Shown: positions 1,526-42,301 of the stretch, piece by piece
Layout: the number at the start of each line of letters is the position of its first letter
How positions within the stretch are numbered: position 1 is the stretch's first letter
IMG/VR virus record: IMGVR_UViG_3300047564_002259
Span: 1 to 49,538 of that record
Source of the DNA: a virus
DNA length: 49,538 nt
Reading direction: 5' to 3' (one strand)
Notes under the pieces: generated by a model
Seen by the model: the letters and a program-made list of their open reading frames with translations, nothing else
Told to the model about the DNA's origin: nothing
The model's database searches: none
Translations under genes and position numbers: made by a program

Positions 1526-1867
1526 TCAATTATATCCAGATAAGTATTTTTCCGCAGGATTCATTTTACTAAATTCTTTCTTCGCTCTTTCTTTTCTTTG
1601 TTGAGCAGCCCAATTTGAAAATGGTTGATAAGCAGATGCTCCAATAGTTACAGGGTTATATGGAGCAACGGTTCCCAAAGCACCAGATAATCTGTTTGCT
1701 GGTGTTTCTTTTGGATCTAATGCTTGTGTTGCATAAAGACCCCTAGTAAGTAATCCACCCACTCTTTTCACTATTGGATTTTGAGTTACTTTTTTTACTA
1801 GAGGATTTGAAATTTGAAACTCATTTATCTGATATGCTTCCACACAAAATTGCTTAAAAGTTTTCAT
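1526..1867 (-). CDS. Small late protein with capsid-targeting-like N-terminus
   Basis: A 113-residue protein. The start at 1867 is preferred over the longer frame because AAGGAGG lies 6 nt upstream and the ATG overlaps the preceding stop as ATGA, a coupled start. The N-terminus MKTFKQFCVE|A resembles the T4 internal-protein capsid targeting sequence (MKTYQEFIAE), although Cys replaces the usual Leu/Ile two residues before the Glu. The rest is basic and Pro/Ala/Gly-rich (IVKRVGGLLTRG, YNPVTIGASAYQ) with no recognised domain. It is cotranscribed with the glycine-zipper gene upstream. It is probably packaged in the head, which is inference from the leader peptide. Confidence 0.75.
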   Translation of the reverse strand: MKTFKQFCVEAYQINEFQISNPLVKKVTQNPIVKRVGGLLTRGLYATQALDPKETPANRLSGALGTVAPYNPVTIGASAYQPFSNWAAQQRKERAKKEFSKMNPAEKYLSGYN

Positions 1868-2904
1868 TTGTTTCCTCCTTGTTGAGATTTCTGCCAATTG
1901 CCATAGACTTTACCTGCCTGAGCAACAAAATCTCTATATGATTTCCTAACTTCAGAAGGAATTTGTTTTCTTATTTCATAAGGAACTGTCTTTCTTACAT
2001 TTGAAAGAACATCTTTAGTTGTTAACTTTTTACCATAATCACCTCTAATTGCCTTTGCCGCCGCTTCCCCTGCTTTAGAACCCAGAGTATATCCAGCAAC
2101 ACTACCACCAATCGCCCCAGGAATACCAAGAACACCCCCCACAGCGCCCCCCAGAGCGCCACCAGCAAGTGCTCCAGCAGATTTAAGAGCAGCAACACCA
2201 GCAGCAGTCTTTTTGCTTGCCCCTGCTGATCTTGCTGTATCATATCCAGTCTTTGCTTCTAATCCAGCACCAATAATTCCTGCAGTTTTACCAAGATTGC
2301 CTAAGGTTTTTTTAGCACTTGAAGCAAATGCTGCTCGTTGTGCAGATTTTGCTGCTTGATTAGTTTTTAATATATCCTTTAATGCATCGGCAGACGATTG
2401 AGTTCTTGATGCTGCTGATACTTTTTCTACACTGGTGGAAAGTTTTGTAGGTCCTTGCCATGCTTGAGTTCTATTGGAGGATGTTACTTTTGGTTTAGAT
2501 AATGTAGAAACAGGTGCTGGTAATGATTTTGGAGTAGTAGAAGTAGATTGAGATATAGAAGTTGTTTGGGTTTTTACAGGAGTTTTTACAATCCTAGTTT
2601 TAATTGACTTTTTAGGTTTACTTTTAATCTCTAATCTAGAAATTATTTCCTCCGGAGTTGTGGATCCTTTTGGCATATTAGTTATAATTATTGACTCTGG
2701 AGTCTTAATTGCTTTTACTTTTGCTTTTTTTCTAGCAACTTCTTTTTCATAAGCAGCAGTTGCTTCAGGATTTTGTGCTCTCATTTCATCATCAGAAAGC
2801 ACGGGGGTTTGTGCAAGTTTTTTTCTTGCTGCTTCTACATCTATCTTTTGCTTCTCCAAAAACTCTTTTCTACCTTCGTTTATAAATTTCCTAAAACTTT
2901 TCAT
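1864..2904 (-). CDS. Late protein with capsid-targeting-like leader and glycine zipper
   Basis: A 346-residue protein beginning MKSFRKFINE|GRKEF, matching the T4 capsid-targeting pattern with an (L/I)xE cleavage site (INE). Residues 20-220 are Lys/Ser/Thr/Ala-rich and probably disordered. Residues 243-290 form a glycine-zipper hydrophobic stretch (AGALAGGALGGAVGGVLG, then GAIGGSVAGY), a pattern that packs membrane helices in pore-forming and channel proteins. The C-terminal 56 residues are basic. A late promoter lies 17 nt upstream and the stop overlaps the next start (ATGA). No known family is recognised. I infer a protein packaged in the head that may act at the host membrane during DNA ejection; a purely structural role is equally possible. 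Confidence 0.8.
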   Translation of the reverse strand: MKSFRKFINEGRKEFLEKQKIDVEAARKKLAQTPVLSDDEMRAQNPEATAAYEKEVARKKAKVKAIKTPESIIITNMPKGSTTPEEIISRLEIKSKPKKSIKTRIVKTPVKTQTTSISQSTSTTPKSLPAPVSTLSKPKVTSSNRTQAWQGPTKLSTSVEKVSAASRTQSSADALKDILKTNQAAKSAQRAAFASSAKKTLGNLGKTAGIIGAGLEAKTGYDTARSAGASKKTAAGVAALKSAGALAGGALGGAVGGVLGIPGAIGGSVAGYTLGSKAGEAAAKAIRGDYGKKLTTKDVLSNVRKTVPYEIRKQIPSEVRKSYRDFVAQAGKVYGNWQKSQQGGNK

Positions 2905-9710: not shown

Positions 9711-11189
9711 TCAGTCAAACCTTGAACTTTGCATATCCTGCGATCTTTGAGCAGCAGCACGTCGAGCAGCAACTTTTTGAGCAGGGGATCTTGGTCCACC
9801 ATATTCACCAGCAGTGGGTGGTTTTTTGCCAGGAACTTTTTTACGCTGCCCTTCTGGTTTACCTTGCATTCCACGAATGGTTTTCTTTACTGCACGATAT
9901 GCTAAATCCGAACTTCCACCACTTTCTTTACCCTGCTCCCTTTCAAGACGATTTAACTCGTCAAGTTGGTCGCCATCTGGTTCATAAGAAGATGCCATAA
10001 CAATAGGATTTTTAGCACCCATTGCCCTTAATTTATTCTTCACTAAATTTATTTTAGCATAATCGCCACGAGTGTCTCTTTCATTTTCTTTATCACTACC
10101 TTTATCATCACAACCACATTCTGCTGCCTCTCCCACATTTTCAGGAAGACCTTTGTGCTTTGTTTTAGCAAATTTCTTTGCTTCTTTTTTAGTTATACCC
10201 TTTGCAGCTGCTGCCACCTCAGGAGATGCTGGATCTTCACCTTTCTTAGCAGCATAAACCATTCCCATAAAACGTTGCTGAGCCTTACTTACCGCCTTTT
10301 CAACAATAACTTTACCTTCCAATTCAGTATGTGCTACCTGAAGACCTGGATATCTTTTTGAACTTCCACTACCAGGAATTTCGGGAGCAATAACTATTTT
10401 ATTTTTTCCCTTCATAGGTTTAATTTGAGAATTATTTGAATCCTCCGTTTTGACCTCACCAATAAATTCCTCACCTAATCCTTTTCTTTTTGCAATTTCA
10501 GAACCACGAACCTTTCTACGATTTAATAGATACTTATCAGTTTTATCATGATCACCATCATTATCAATATCCTTATCTTCTTTTCCTACTGGGTCTAATG
10601 ATTTTCCTGCCTTTGCTCTTGCAGTCATTTCACCCTTGTTTTTTTCACCTTCATAAGGTTCGCCATATCCAGTCATTTCAACAGACTCAATGTTTGGATT
10701 TGCACGAAGAGAGCTAATTTTATCACGGGTTGCATATCTTACATATGATCTACCACTCTTATCAACGACCTTAACTTTATACTTTCTATGCTCTGCAGTT
10801 TCTAACTTTTCCATATAAGTTAGACGGATTGGTTCTTCAACCTTAATATTTTCTACAAAAACTTTATATAATGCATTTGCTAAATTATCAGAAGCAAAAT
10901 CTCCAATATTAAAATCTTCCGCTTGCATTCCACCCTTACCAAAAAGTTTTGCCTTTACCATTGTTTTTTCCTGTCCACTCATACTACTGTTTTGCATATA
11001 TTGAGAATACGCTTGGCGAAGAGGGATTTCTTCTCTTCTTGCCCTATAACGAATGTCATAAATTGCTTGCTTTACTCTTTTTTCGGGAGACTTCCCACCT
11101 TCTTCATGACCAAGTTTTCCACCTTTAGAAGCATCTGCAGCTTGTGGGAACTTTCTTGCAGGAAGTTCCTCAGCAATATGTTTTTTCAT
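9711..11189 (-). CDS. Large late protein with a DxDxDGD acidic loop, probably virion-associated
   Basis: A 492-residue charged protein (MKKHIAEELPARKFPQAADA). Residues about 136-180 look like a small beta domain (KYKVKVVDKSGRSYVRYATR, then MTGYGEPYEGE). Residues 207-216 read DIDNDGDHDK, a calcium-loop-like motif of the dockerin/EF-hand type. A C/D/E-rich segment (ECGCDDKGSDKENERDTRGD) and a basic C-terminus follow. HIAE and FIGE match the gp21 cleavage pattern. A late promoter variant lies upstream, inside the end of the NMNAT-like gene. I recognise no function; a head or tail accessory protein is the best inference from context. Confidence 0.7.
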   Translation of the reverse strand: MKKHIAEELPARKFPQAADASKGGKLGHEEGGKSPEKRVKQAIYDIRYRARREEIPLRQAYSQYMQNSSMSGQEKTMVKAKLFGKGGMQAEDFNIGDFASDNLANALYKVFVENIKVEEPIRLTYMEKLETAEHRKYKVKVVDKSGRSYVRYATRDKISSLRANPNIESVEMTGYGEPYEGEKNKGEMTARAKAGKSLDPVGKEDKDIDNDGDHDKTDKYLLNRRKVRGSEIAKRKGLGEEFIGEVKTEDSNNSQIKPMKGKNKIVIAPEIPGSGSSKRYPGLQVAHTELEGKVIVEKAVSKAQQRFMGMVYAAKKGEDPASPEVAAAAKGITKKEAKKFAKTKHKGLPENVGEAAECGCDDKGSDKENERDTRGDYAKINLVKNKLRAMGAKNPIVMASSYEPDGDQLDELNRLEREQGKESGGSSDLAYRAVKKTIRGMQGKPEGQRKKVPGKKPPTAGEYGGPRSPAQKVAARRAAAQRSQDMQSSRFD

Positions 11190-11197
11190 GAGAAAAT

Positions 11198-12505
11198 TTA
11201 CTTTTTACTCTTTTTTCTATACTTATTTATGAATTTTATACCATACGCTATAGCGCCTGGTTGAAGATTTTTACTACCAACACCAATTGCTCCAGGAGTC
11301 ATGTCTGAAAAATGTTTAAATGCCCCTAAAGTTCCCACTAAAGTATTTGGATGAATAGCATCTCGCATTCTTCTATCCATTCTAACTTCACTATATTCTC
11401 TCAAATCTTTAATCCAAGATTTAAACATTTGCCCAGACTCAGTTACACATATAAGATAATTTGTTCCTCTACGAATAATATTACCAACCAATCCGGTATT
11501 TAAATTTTCAACTTTTTCACCAATTCTAAAAATTGATTCTGCAAGATAATTTTCTCGAAGATTTTGATAATCAAATTTGGGAGCAATTTCCCATAAATTC
11601 CAACCTTCTTTAATACTCATCGAACCACGAAGAATATCAAATAATTCTTTTGCTTCTGAACGTTTTACTTCTGGAGGAAGACCAGATCTAAAAGTTTTAA
11701 AGTCATTCTCTGCTGCAGCAAGCCTCATTCTTGAAGCAGACATTCCTTCTACGCCAGTCGCATCAGGGTCTCTGTCTCCTGCAGAAACTACTTCAATATT
11801 ATCAAACTGATACAACTTTCCATTATAGTTGTTAGAAAGTTTTTCAAACTCTTTAACTCTGTCAGCACCGCCAATAATTCTTACATTTGTATATCCATCA
11901 TTGTGTGCCATTCTTAAGACATCAAAGATGGTTTTAGTATTAGGATCATTTACAATATTACCAGAGTGAGAGGGATAAAACCTCTGCATATATGCAATCT
12001 TAGTATCAGGGTCTAATGGATTCTTTTTCTTATCTTGACTTCTTGATGGGAATATTAAATATTGACCATCCTCATCTTGTGATGCTGATTGTGCAGCAAC
12101 ATCCATCAGTTGCTGGTGTCCAATTGTAGGTGGATTAAATCTACCAAAAGCAATAGTCAATGTGCCTTTAGTTTTTTCAACAGGTGGAGGTCCTACTTGT
12201 TGAGGAGGTTCTTGTGCTGCTGCTTGCTGCTCTGGTGCAGGTGCCTGTTGTTGTGTCGCTTGCTGTTTTAACTCTGGATCATTATATCCAGGAGAAGCGA
12301 TAGTTTTTTCCTTTTCAGTCTGCTTTGGATCTTTTGCACCAACTCTTTGACGCTTATTGTAAAACTTTAATTTCCCACCTTCCGTTTTAGCAACAAACTC
12401 ACCTTGACGATCATACCAACCACCGTGCCCATCACCAACGAGTCCAAGACGCTGTGCTTGTTGGGATGCAGACGCTTCTGTTAGGAATTGGAAAAAACTT
12501 TTCAT
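11198..12505 (-). CDS. NMNAT-like nucleotidyltransferase with capsid-targeting-like leader
   Basis: A 435-residue late protein. It starts MKSFFQFLTE|ASAS, matching the T4 capsid targeting pattern with an LxE cleavage site. Residues 60-110 are a Gln/Pro/Ala linker. Residues 114-260 are a HIGH-superfamily nucleotidyltransferase: AFGRFNPPTIGHQQLM at 119-134 carries the (T/H)xGH motif, and MSASRMRLA near 258 is the C-terminal (S/T)xxR-type motif. IIGGADRVKEF fits the middle of the fold. Residues about 320-370 are a KOW/SH3-like barrel (EKVENLNTGLVGNIIRRG). The family joins adenylyl or cytidylyl groups to small phosphorylated molecules (NMN, phosphopantetheine, glycerol-phosphate); the substrate is not readable. 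The leader suggests the enzyme rides in the capsid. Confidence 0.8.
   Translation of the reverse strand: MKSFFQFLTEASASQQAQRLGLVGDGHGGWYDRQGEFVAKTEGGKLKFYNKRQRVGAKDPKQTEKEKTIASPGYNDPELKQQATQQQAPAPEQQAAAQEPPQQVGPPPVEKTKGTLTIAFGRFNPPTIGHQQLMDVAAQSASQDEDGQYLIFPSRSQDKKKNPLDPDTKIAYMQRFYPSHSGNIVNDPNTKTIFDVLRMAHNDGYTNVRIIGGADRVKEFEKLSNNYNGKLYQFDNIEVVSAGDRDPDATGVEGMSASRMRLAAAENDFKTFRSGLPPEVKRSEAKELFDILRGSMSIKEGWNLWEIAPKFDYQNLRENYLAESIFRIGEKVENLNTGLVGNIIRRGTNYLICVTESGQMFKSWIKDLREYSEVRMDRRMRDAIHPNTLVGTLGAFKHFSDMTPGAIGVGSKNLQPGAIAYGIKFINKYRKKSKK
11224..11231 (-). promoter_or_regulatory. Late promoter variant CATAAATA
   Basis: Lies inside the 3' end of the NMNAT-like gene, 34 nt before the ATG at 11189. 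One mismatch from TATAAATA. Confidence 0.5.
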
Positions 12506-12546: not shown

Positions 12547-12554
12547 TATTTATT
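12547..12554 (-). promoter_or_regulatory. Late promoter variant AATAAATA
   Basis: One mismatch from TATAAATA. It lies 41 nt before the ATG at 12505, right at the end of the previous gene. Confidence 0.55.
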
Positions 12555-13478
12555 CTAAACAAATCTTGAGACAGTTCTTCCTCCAATAGGATTGATTGTA
12601 ATCCTAGCACCCTTTATTCCATGATCACTCCTATCTCCTTTATATACTGCTAAAAAAATAGGTTCATAAGATCCAGTTATCCTATCACCATTATAGAGTT
12701 TGTGTCCAGAAGAAGTTAATTCATAATATGTCCCCCTTGACTGTATATCTAAAATTCCTTGCATAGTGACATCTACATTGTTTTCACTATAAGGACCACC
12801 ATAGTCCTTACCATAAACTGCTAGTTTTTTTAGATTTTCATCTTGAATTTTTCTCCCAACTGTTGTTGTTGGTGGCATACCATTAGGAAACATATCCCTT
12901 AGAGTGTTTATAAATGCTTGAGTTTCTGGATGTTCATATATTGTAGGCTCTACTCTTTGAGAAGTTCCAGACCATTGCTGAAATCCTCGTGGACCTTGTC
13001 CAGCTTTATGAGAAACGTGACCAACATAACCTCCCATACCCAAAAAATGAAAATCACATTTTGGGGTTCCTGGCGTACTCTCACAAAGACCAGTTTGATA
13101 TGTATTTTTTCCCACTTTTAATGGTATAAAATCTTTACCCAACTTATCCATTATTTTTTTTAATTTCTCATTTATTCTTATAACTTCAGCATCTTCTTTT
13201 GCAGTAGTTGCTTGCGTCCTTCCGGAAAACTCAGAGTCTTTATACAATTCAGTCAATCTTATATTTTGCCCATTTTCGGTCAATAAAATTATCGACTGCC
13301 CCTGTTTAAATTTATTAAAATTCGATATAGAAGTTAAATCTTTTAAAATATTTTTATTTAATTTAACACCTTGCCCGTTACCATTGTCTATCTTAAATTC
13401 TTTACCATTACGAATTCTAGATATAAAAATATTAAAATTATTCCTCTTCGCAAGTTCAGATATTGATAGAGAAGCCAT
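12555..13478 (-). CDS. Late protein with possible nuclease-like core
   Basis: A 307-residue protein (MASLSISELAKRNNFNIFIS). Residues 20-85 look like a small beta domain ending IRLTELYKDSEFSGR. Residues 140-170 contain CDFHFLGMGGYVGHVSHKAG followed by FQQWSG. The spacing Asp142...Ser156-His-Lys158 resembles the D-x(n)-(E/x)-x-K core of PD-(D/E)xK nucleases, with Ser in the usual Glu position. As I recall, similar 'DF..........SHK.G.....QQW.G' proteins are widespread in marine phages, but I cannot verify this here. It follows the tRNA gene and has a late promoter variant only 10 nt upstream. Catalysis is uncertain; it may be a structural protein using a nuclease fold. Confidence 0.65.
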   Translation of the reverse strand: MASLSISELAKRNNFNIFISRIRNGKEFKIDNGNGQGVKLNKNILKDLTSISNFNKFKQGQSIILLTENGQNIRLTELYKDSEFSGRTQATTAKEDAEVIRINEKLKKIMDKLGKDFIPLKVGKNTYQTGLCESTPGTPKCDFHFLGMGGYVGHVSHKAGQGPRGFQQWSGTSQRVEPTIYEHPETQAFINTLRDMFPNGMPPTTTVGRKIQDENLKKLAVYGKDYGGPYSENNVDVTMQGILDIQSRGTYYELTSSGHKLYNGDRITGSYEPIFLAVYKGDRSDHGIKGARITINPIGGRTVSRFV

Positions 13479-37964: not shown

Positions 37965-38510
37965 TCATAAAGGATTTCCATCAGTTCCTAGAATATTATA
38001 TACAGTATACTTGAAAGTTACCTCTGCTGTAAAGTATTGAATGTCAGTTTGTGTTGCATCAAATTCTAAAGATGATAAAGAAAAGGGAAATAAATCTTTA
38101 AATTTTATAATTGATATTGTATTGAAATTACTATTTAAAATGTAAAGACTTCCGTCACTAAATGCTTCTTTTGAATCTTGAACTCCATTTTCTGTAATTA
38201 AATCTCTATATTGCTGTGTTGTTTCTGGGAAACCCAAACCAGTAATCCAATTATGTATTGACACATAATTTTCCATATTTTCATCAACTAAAAATCTAAT
38301 GTTCAAATCACCATAAGTTGGTTTTGTTCCTGGAACATCAAGATCCTTAAGGTATGATGGTTGAATAACAGATGTTAAAGAAATCTCTGGAATTCTAGCT
38401 GAATTGCAAAAAAATCCAACCTTAGGATATTTTGCAATGGTAAGTTTAAATCCTACAGGAGAAAGAAAATTTCTATTTGCAATTTGATTTGGAAAATTAC
38501 AATTCGCCAT
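37965..38510 (-). CDS. gp3: Tail completion/tube-end protein, gp3-like, probable
   Basis: A 181-residue protein (MANCNFPNQIANRNFLSPVG). The fold pattern, with FKLTIAKYPKVGFF, IPEISL, LRFL/IRFLVDENM and the late strand FTAEVTFKYTVYNI, resembles the gp3/gp19 tail-tube family, and its length matches T4 gp3 (176), which caps the tail and stabilises the sheath. I recall that cyanophages often carry gp3 next to uvsY, which fits. It starts on the last base of the RlpA-like stop (TAATG). A second tail-tube-like protein is possible. Confidence 0.6.
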   Translation of the reverse strand: MANCNFPNQIANRNFLSPVGFKLTIAKYPKVGFFCNSARIPEISLTSVIQPSYLKDLDVPGTKPTYGDLNIRFLVDENMENYVSIHNWITGLGFPETTQQYRDLITENGVQDSKEAFSDGSLYILNSNFNTISIIKFKDLFPFSLSSLEFDATQTDIQYFTAEVTFKYTVYNILGTDGNPL

Positions 38511-38932
38511 TATTTTTTCTTAGTTGGAACTATTTTTGGAATATTCATATTCACTTTAACTCCTAAATCAGGAATTTTTGGTTTTGGTTTTTCTTTTGGT
38601 ATTGGTGTAACATCAAGATCTCTTACACCAAACTGTTTATAATCTTTATATCCAAGATCTTTTGTTGTTTGTGTAGTTAAGTCAAATTTACGATCTCCGT
38701 GATATGGACCCCTATCAACAACAGGTGCAACAACAGATCTGCCGCTTTTAGGATCGGTAATTTTTACTTTGCTTCCCAATGGCAATGTTTTATGAGCAAC
38801 TCCCCTAGTTGTGGGTGATAATTTTATACCAGAAGCAGTTGGATTTCCATATAATCCTGGACCATAAGAACTTGTTGATACTATTGCACCAAAAGGAATT
38901 GCTTCTTTTAAAAATTCCTTAAAAGTTTTCAT
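38510..38932 (-). CDS. RlpA-like double-psi beta-barrel protein with capsid-targeting-like leader
   Basis: A 140-residue late protein. It begins MKTFKEFLKE|AIPFG, the closest match in this window to the T4 capsid targeting sequence with an LxE site. Residues 17-110 are an RlpA-type barrel: SSYGPGLYGNPTASG, HKTLPLGSKVKI (His47) and VVDRGPYHGD (Asp73). RlpA proteins bind or cleave denuded peptidoglycan. Two catalytic-region acids are missing: where the family has GE.(F)D, this protein has G-I-K-L-S. It may bind or loosen peptidoglycan rather than cut it. A Lys/Pro tail ends the protein. It follows gp23 and a terminator and has a late promoter variant. Confidence 0.82.
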   Translation of the reverse strand: MKTFKEFLKEAIPFGAIVSTSSYGPGLYGNPTASGIKLSPTTRGVAHKTLPLGSKVKITDPKSGRSVVAPVVDRGPYHGDRKFDLTTQTTKDLGYKDYKQFGVRDLDVTPIPKEKPKPKIPDLGVKVNMNIPKIVPTKKK

Positions 38933-41650: not shown

Positions 41651-42301
41651 TTATAGATTTGAAAGAAATTCTTGGAACAATTGAACTTTATGTTCTTGAA
41701 GAATTCTTTCATCAACTAGAGTATTAATTCTACGCTTTGTTGACTCTACAAATTGCTCACGGAGAATTCCGCCATCCCAAATCCATTCCTTTCCTTCCAT
41801 AATTCCCTGAACAAATGCATCAGGAGCAGAAGGATCGGCAACAATATCAGCAGCAGTTGCTAACATAAAATCTTCACCAACGATCTTATGACCTTCATTG
41901 GTTATTTTAAGTGAGCCTACACCACGAGAAGAAACACCAAGACAAACTCCTTCACTGATAAGAGATTTTGCAATCTTACCCATTGGTGTTTCAAGAAGTT
42001 TTGCTTTTCCAATAAAGTTGTTACCATCTCTATAAAGCTCACAAATTTTATGTGAAACACGATCAAGATTTACGGTAGGTCCATCAGGGTGTCCAAGTTC
42101 TCCAAGAGCACGACCTTTTACAACAAAATTTTCATTATAACGATTTACTTCTCTTTCCATAACAGAAAGAGGATACATTCTACCATTTCTGTTAACTTGT
42201 TCTGCTTGCAAGAAAATGCCTTTGATATAGCACTGTTTATTAGTGCCTTTACCTTCGGTAATAAATTCTACTTTTTGAATTTCTTCTGTGATGAGTTTCA
42301 T
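41651..42301 (-). CDS. gp21: Prohead core protease, T4 gp21-like
   Basis: The 216-residue serine protease that matures the prohead by cutting after (L/I)xE. The family motif GELGHPDGPTVNLDRVSHK carries His71 and Asp residues, and LGVSSRGVGS at 121-130 holds the likely nucleophile Ser. It is close to the T4 length (212). It is central to the idea that several late proteins here carry cleavable leaders. It overlaps no neighbour but is 2 nt from the 42304 gene. Confidence 0.95.
   Translation of the reverse strand: MKLITEEIQKVEFITEGKGTNKQCYIKGIFLQAEQVNRNGRMYPLSVMEREVNRYNENFVVKGRALGELGHPDGPTVNLDRVSHKICELYRDGNNFIGKAKLLETPMGKIAKSLISEGVCLGVSSRGVGSLKITNEGHKIVGEDFMLATAADIVADPSAPDAFVQGIMEGKEWIWDGGILREQFVESTKRRINTLVDERILQEHKVQLFQEFLSNL

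Follow-up and report, generated by a model that had tools for sequence, protein, structure and literature searches.

Phage T4 carries internal head proteins (IPI, IPII, IPIII and Alt) that are made late, reside in the head and are ejected into the host (PMC9026906). Targeting of IPIII to the prohead core depends on its residues 4 and 7, and its processing on residues 8 and 10 (PMC9026906). In marine T4-like cyanophages, which are among the most abundant phages of the sea, the product of core gene cluster T4-GC190 was detected in S-SM1 virions by mass spectrometry (PMC3037559). By the same method, orthologues were also found in purified virions of S-SCSM1 (ORF91, annotated as NMNAT, within five consecutive virion-protein genes, ORF89-93), S-SZBM1 (S-SZBM1_140, with its neighbor _139) and S-CREM2 (ORF154). 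The authors of the S-SCSM1 and S-CREM2 studies proposed that an NMNAT is injected and alters NAD levels, while allowing for co-purification of an abundant protein. The idea of an injected NMNAT is not new: the location in virions has been in print since 2010, and the hypothesis that an injected NMNAT affects NAD since 2022-2023. Phage enzymes that rebuild NAD are also known (NARP1 Adps/Namat; NMNAT with NAPRTase in Vibrio phages). Unlike the T4-GC190 enzyme, these are made after infection from paired genes, although they would serve the same end if the T4-GC190 substrate were NMN, in which case NAD would stay available against NAD-depleting defense.

The window analyzed here is a 49,538-base fragment from an uncultivated virus record. 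Its gene order was that of a T4-like cyanophage: nrdB, nrdA, primase, the NMNAT-like gene, mazG, DnaB-like helicase and UvsW-type helicase, followed by tail tube, major head protein, scaffold, prohead protease, portal, sheath and terminase. The gene under study (11198-12505, minus strand; ATG at 12505, stop at 11198) was genuine, with correct boundaries, and encodes 435 aa. The protein matched PHROG_395 (E = 2.7e-100) and scored 28.6 bits against the Pfam CTP_transf_like model (cut-off 21), which places it in the HIGH superfamily. It is an orthologue of T4-GC190, annotated ‘cytitidyltransferase’ in P-SSM2 (PSSM2_194), and the gene lies between helicase/mazG and primase/nrdA, as in P-SSM2 and S-SRM01. 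Identity was 65% to S-SRM01 (gp258), 59% to P-SSM2 and 49% to S-SCSM1. Leader, core, barrel and neighborhood were all alike in these orthologues, and the window copy, which comes from an uncultivated cyanophage, showed no essential difference and is one more member of the orthologue group. Matches to the 435-aa protein were found in 560 phage records (at least 80% coverage in 311), mainly marine Synechococcus and Prochlorococcus phages; the core alone was also present in Escherichia, Cronobacter, Pseudomonas, Vibrio and Serratia jumbo phages. The family, its virion location and the NAD hypothesis were thus already known. The present analysis adds the leader and late promoter, the wide conservation of the active site and a negative result on a paired NAPRTase.

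The protein begins with the leader MKSFFQFLTE (residues 1-10; 12476-12505, minus strand), with a prohead-protease cut predicted after LTE. MKSFFQFLTEA aligned column for column with MKTYQEFIAEA, the start of both IPII and IPIII in the T4 record, and the two leaders agree at every functional position. Across 132 homologues, the residues equivalent to those that govern targeting and processing in T4 were nearly fixed (F4 in 131, F7 in 132, I/L8 in 125, E10 in 130), and positions 3, 5, 6 and 9 were variable. The capsid-targeting-like leader described in the first-pass annotation was thereby borne out. The cargo is unrelated to that of T4, being a HIGH-family nucleotidyltransferase here and an ADP-ribosyltransferase or restriction inhibitor there. 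The window also encodes scaffold, major head protein and a prohead protease (41651-42301; PHROG_207 head maturation protease, E = 9.2e-82). A strict leader pattern was found at 3 gene starts in the window (12505, 2904 and 38932) against 0.0005 expected from composition, and at 0 of 278 internal Met positions. Among the annotated genes of the complete S-SCSM1 genome, the leader occurred in just two, including the orthologue of the enzyme. Most other S-SCSM1 virion proteins were without it, so the leader is no general detector of virion proteins. The stand-alone cores of P-HM2, S-H9-1 and the jumbo phages had no leader; since a few cyanophages carry such a leaderless core, packaging is not universal. 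The link to capsid targeting may be unreported in cyanophages: in a partial literature search, only a T4 review joined both subjects.

The described late promoter of S-PM2 is NATAAATA, and ATAAATA is the core of the cyanophage late promoter (PMC2984593). A late-promoter-like ATAAATA was located 42 bp upstream of the start codon (12547-12553, minus strand). Of 131 distinct homologous genes, 109 had the motif in the 120 bp before the start codon; dinucleotide shuffling of the 131 regions gave 18.2 ± 4.3, and the antisense strand gave 0. Because these regions share ancestry, they cannot be counted as independent events, yet the excess over shuffles and antisense is large. All 21 exact ATAAATA sites in the window had the orientation of the coding (minus) strand, with 13 lying 5-90 bp upstream of a gene start, an interval comprising 8% of the window (binomial P ~1e-9). 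The 21 sites provide a usable late-promoter map of the window. That a gene lying with the replication genes has a late promoter is consistent with a product destined for the virion.

Taken with the published virion mass spectrometry, which was performed on the orthologues in S-SM1, S-SCSM1, S-SZBM1 and S-CREM2, the leader and late promoter support packaging well, and the protein is very likely packaged in the head. Absence from virions, one ground on which the first-pass annotation would have given up the idea, does not hold for these orthologues. Given packaging, ejection into the host is likely by analogy, as T4 ejects proteins with such a leader (PMC9026906). A loose speculation about an NMNAT in the virion becomes, with a conserved leader and a late promoter, a concrete and testable claim of head packaging and delivery.

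The catalytic core (residues 113-299; 11609-12169, minus strand) was modeled with pLDDT mostly >90. Four motifs were identified on the minus strand, and invariance was counted over 75 distinct homologues that included stand-alone copies. In the HIGH motif GRFNPPTIGH (residues 121-130; 12116-12145), G121, R122, P125, G129 and H130 were invariant and N124 was kept in 74. KNPLDPDTK (residues 161-169; 11999-12025) had P163 and K169 invariant, and GGADR (residues 212-216; 11858-11872) had G213 and R216 invariant with D215 in 74. In SASRMR, the SxxxxR signature (residues 256-261; 11723-11740), S256 and R261 were invariant. The most distant homologues, the jumbo-phage copies, had ~30-37% identity to the window core. 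The HIGH-type nucleotidyltransferase named in the first-pass annotation is therefore present, with both [HT]xGH and SxxxxR signatures and a Pfam match above cut-off, and loss of catalytic His or Arg, looked for in the 75 homologues, was not seen. This invariance argues for a working enzyme, and from its sequence the protein is predicted, with good confidence, to be an active adenylyltransferase. The comparison with T4 Alt stands for the delivery route but not for the chemistry, as the enzyme is not an ADP-ribosyltransferase and has no ART domain; an Alt-like ADP-ribosyltransferase was rejected, CTP_transf_like being the only Pfam match at E up to 1.

The best PDB folds of the core (Foldseek) were PPAT and NMNAT (E = 2.6e-6 and weaker; TM by target 0.5-0.72), with PPAT folds ranking as well as NMNAT, and with PanC and FAD synthetase as weak further matches. 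After the generic model, NCBIfam matches among 22 core sequences were to TIGR00482 (19), PRK08887 (16), NadR (15) and CoaD (8). Scores were 19.2 bits for TIGR00482 (cut-off 112.45) and 17.5 bits for TIGR01526 (cut-off 341.15), TIGR01527 did not match the protein, and family scores overall were ~17-21 bits against curated cut-offs of 112-341. By sequence, the protein is therefore outside every characterized NMNAT family, and the sequence profile did not separate NMNAT from PPAT. A profile search against solved structures (E = 0.003-0.3) returned a mixture of UPF0348, NMNAT, NadR, FAD synthetase and PPAT, together with spurious S-layer matches; a single-sequence search of the PDB found nothing.

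Compared with archaeal NadM and NadR-type NMNATs (MJ0541, NadR), the core is alike in GRFxPxxxGH, in NPxxxxx[KR] at equal spacing, in SxxxxR and in fold class; in the MJ0541 alignment, GRFNP paired with GRFQP and KNPLDPDTK with ENPFTAGER (NPFTAGER). It differs from them in lying far under the family cut-offs, and the fold search did not set it apart from PPAT. Bacterial phosphopantetheine adenylyltransferase (CoaD) provided the best Foldseek matches to the window core, but with only 14-18% identity over the alignment, and the CoaD model matched fewer of the 22 sequences than the NaMN/NMN adenylyltransferase model (8 vs. 19). The core has the TxGH form of the motif, as in CoaD. An NMNAT-like enzyme, as proposed from the sequence, is thus plausible by fold and motif, although the low scores and the unseparated PPAT weigh against a firm assignment; structure comparison likewise returned PPAT and NMNAT folds that were inseparable, and no glycerol-phosphate transferase among the 50 best. 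Fold and family searches together point to the ATP-using NMNAT/PPAT branch rather than to cytidylyltransferases. Within it, NMN or NaMN is our leading guess for the substrate, held tentatively; some other small molecule as acceptor is only somewhat less likely. PF04095 (nicotinamide phosphoribosyltransferase/NAPRTase) was not found in 8 related phage records, including the complete S-SRM01, P-SSM2, S-SCSM1 and P-SSM4, and the NAPRTase/NAMPT plus NMNAT pair of phage NAD salvage was thus not present in them. A phage-encoded supply of NMN is therefore not evident in these records, and host supply would have to serve.

Three further modules surround the core. A small beta module (LGLVGDGHGGWYD...KLKFYNKRQRV, residues 20-55; 12341-12448, minus strand) was kept by most full-length copies and is also found in phrog_3561. 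A low-complexity Q/P-rich linker (residues 56-112; 12170-12340, minus strand) was poorly conserved, with pLDDT mostly <60. As the linker limits confidence in the whole model (pTM 0.51), only core and barrel were interpreted. The barrel (residues 326-370; 11396-11530, minus strand), followed by a basic tail, was a C-terminal KOW/SH3-like small beta barrel in AlphaFold and Foldseek, with matches to SPT5 KOW, MutS2 KOW, Tudor and Hfq-like folds. As the best E-value was 3e-3, the KOW/SH3-like assignment made in the first-pass annotation is upheld by the model as suggestive rather than strong; such a barrel may bind nucleic acid or a host complex. The modules were separable across phages, the core being a bare gene of 183-185 aa in P-HM2 and S-H9-1 and the barrel a gene of its own in S-PM2, S-H9-1 and Sf-FR1. 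Stand-alone barrel genes were named ribonucleotide reductase alpha or NrdB (phrog_4808; L087, 5297-5569; L091, 3546-3797; L096, 2965-3186), which looks like a propagated error. In S-CRM01, the small beta module (LGLQSDGHGSYLD...FYD) was on a separate protein upstream of the enzyme, g128 (L089, 2378-2926), which has a leader-like stretch of its own (VKLSLDSFIKEA); the S-CRM01 enzyme keeps its leader.

Four other explanations were weighed against packaged small-molecule adenylyltransferase activity. An abundant, non-packaged enzyme could have adhered to purified virions, a caveat stated by the S-SCSM1 and S-CREM2 authors and in keeping with an enzyme encoded among replication genes. We consider this improbable: the leader, with its protease site, is fixed at functional positions and only one other S-SCSM1 gene has one, the gene has a late promoter, the S-SCSM1 virion-protein genes are contiguous, and detection was repeated in independent phages. 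Leader and late promoter thus argue against mere co-purification. A published list enters the protein as a virion structural protein, and loss of enzymatic function with retention of the fold would make it one, but G121, R122, P125, G129, H130, K169, R216, S256 and R261 were invariant in 75 sequences that included stand-alone, non-packaged copies. The simplest account of this is that the active site is under selection, leaving a purely structural role very improbable.

The chemistry could also differ. A cytidylyltransferase activating glycerol-phosphate or sugar-phosphate for envelope or glycan synthesis is implied by the database names ‘cytitidyltransferase’ and ‘glycerol-3-phosphate cytidylyltransferase’, and the S-SZBM1 paper suggested it, as did a jumbo-phage survey with regard to related HIGH enzymes of phages. 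The name, however, goes back to a broad Pfam model, and no glycerol- or sugar-phosphate model was among the 25 listed NCBIfam families (22 members) or the 50 best PDB folds. In ATP-using NMNAT/PPAT enzymes, SxSxxR precedes a helix and xLP, and the window protein has this arrangement too. Cytidylyl transfer is accordingly given little probability, and glycerol-phosphate cytidylyltransferase was rejected as the lead reading, having neither family nor fold support. A head-internal enzyme that adenylylates or otherwise alters a macromolecule held by the barrel, be it tRNA, an RNA end, protein or DNA, is unlikely but has more in its favor. The barrel resembles nucleic-acid, ribosome- and RNAP-associated KOW and Tudor folds, and a DUF6267 protein with a KWDG motif is the upstream neighbor in several phages. 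MJ0951 (UPF0348) was alone among PDB sequences in matching the profile at its HIGH as well as its SxxxxR region, although its score was weak (E = 0.003). TmcAL enzymes, related to UPF0348, act on tRNA. Against a macromolecular target, the jumbo-phage copies are bare cores without a barrel, and the fold search gives small-molecule enzymes. We see only a slim chance that the packaged enzyme acts on a host macromolecule in the first minutes of infection, for example by adenylylating tRNA, RNA ends or a factor of transcription or translation held by the barrel; if true, this would be a new class of injected phage nucleotidyltransferase and a functional parallel to T4 Alt.

The reading we prefer as a whole, a late-made, head-packaged adenylyltransferase ejected into the host, is on balance probable. 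The gene would be transcribed late from its T4-type promoter despite its place among replication genes, and the first ten residues would bind the protein to the prohead core. The prohead protease probably cuts after LTE-10, and the protein would remain in the mature head and leave with the DNA at ejection. In the new host, the HIGH-family core may use ATP to adenylylate a phosphorylated acceptor, for which NMN and NaMN are the leading candidates and NAD or its deamido form would be the product; dinucleotide synthesis would then be ready ahead of all phage gene expression. Anchoring of the enzyme to nucleic acid or a host complex is the probable role of the KOW-like barrel.

With this leader as a guide, head-delivered proteins could be enumerated from sequence; cyanophages seem to maintain a small repertoire of them, and the window holds four candidates. 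One (38510-38932, minus strand; 140 aa) has the leader MKTFKEFLKEA followed by a DPBB_1/RlpA-like lytic transglycosylase domain (Pfam E = 7.4e-11), and adjoins the tail-tube gene; by its sequence, it is a candidate head-packaged cell-wall enzyme. Two overlapping leader genes were found at 1526-1867 and 1864-2904 (minus strand). The latter starts with MKSFRKFINEG and has a late-promoter motif at 2922-2928; the former starts from an internal ATG with MKTFKQFCVEA, a fourth, relaxed match inside an ORF listed as 1526-1897. The other leader gene of S-SCSM1, ORF30 (L179, 44215-44535; MKTFKQFMSES), encodes a hypothetical protein of 106 aa outside the virion-protein list.

Downstream of the enzyme gene, a DUF3008-containing protein of 492 aa is encoded at 9711-11189 (minus strand), with its own late-promoter-like motif at 11224-11230. 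This neighbor was conserved beside the enzyme gene in S-SRM01 and P-SSM2, and the gene at this position, matched by place only, encodes a virion protein in S-SCSM1 and S-SZBM1. The 492-aa protein is likely co-packaged with the enzyme. The upstream neighbor (12555-13478, minus strand; 307 aa) matched phrog_13937 (E = 1.1e-92), with a sub-threshold match to the SPP1_Dit tail component. In several cyanophages, the gene directly upstream of the enzyme is instead T4-GC71, a DUF6267 gene (L086, 1769-2986; L091, 1763-2992; L098, 7481-8671; L085, 2088-3011), which is not at that place in the window. The three DUF6267 proteins inspected carried KWDG[AS]PA, which resembles the KxDG lysine motif found in covalent nucleotidyltransferases and ligases.

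A cellular copy of the gene, as expected from host-gene capture, was not found in a scan of genome contigs, which returned 27 loci (L185-L211). Nearly all were in marine metagenome bins of unrelated phyla, spanning diverse bacteria and archaea, and many are probably viral contigs within bins. A Nonlabens isolate contig (L189) also carried a relative, which may be in a prophage.
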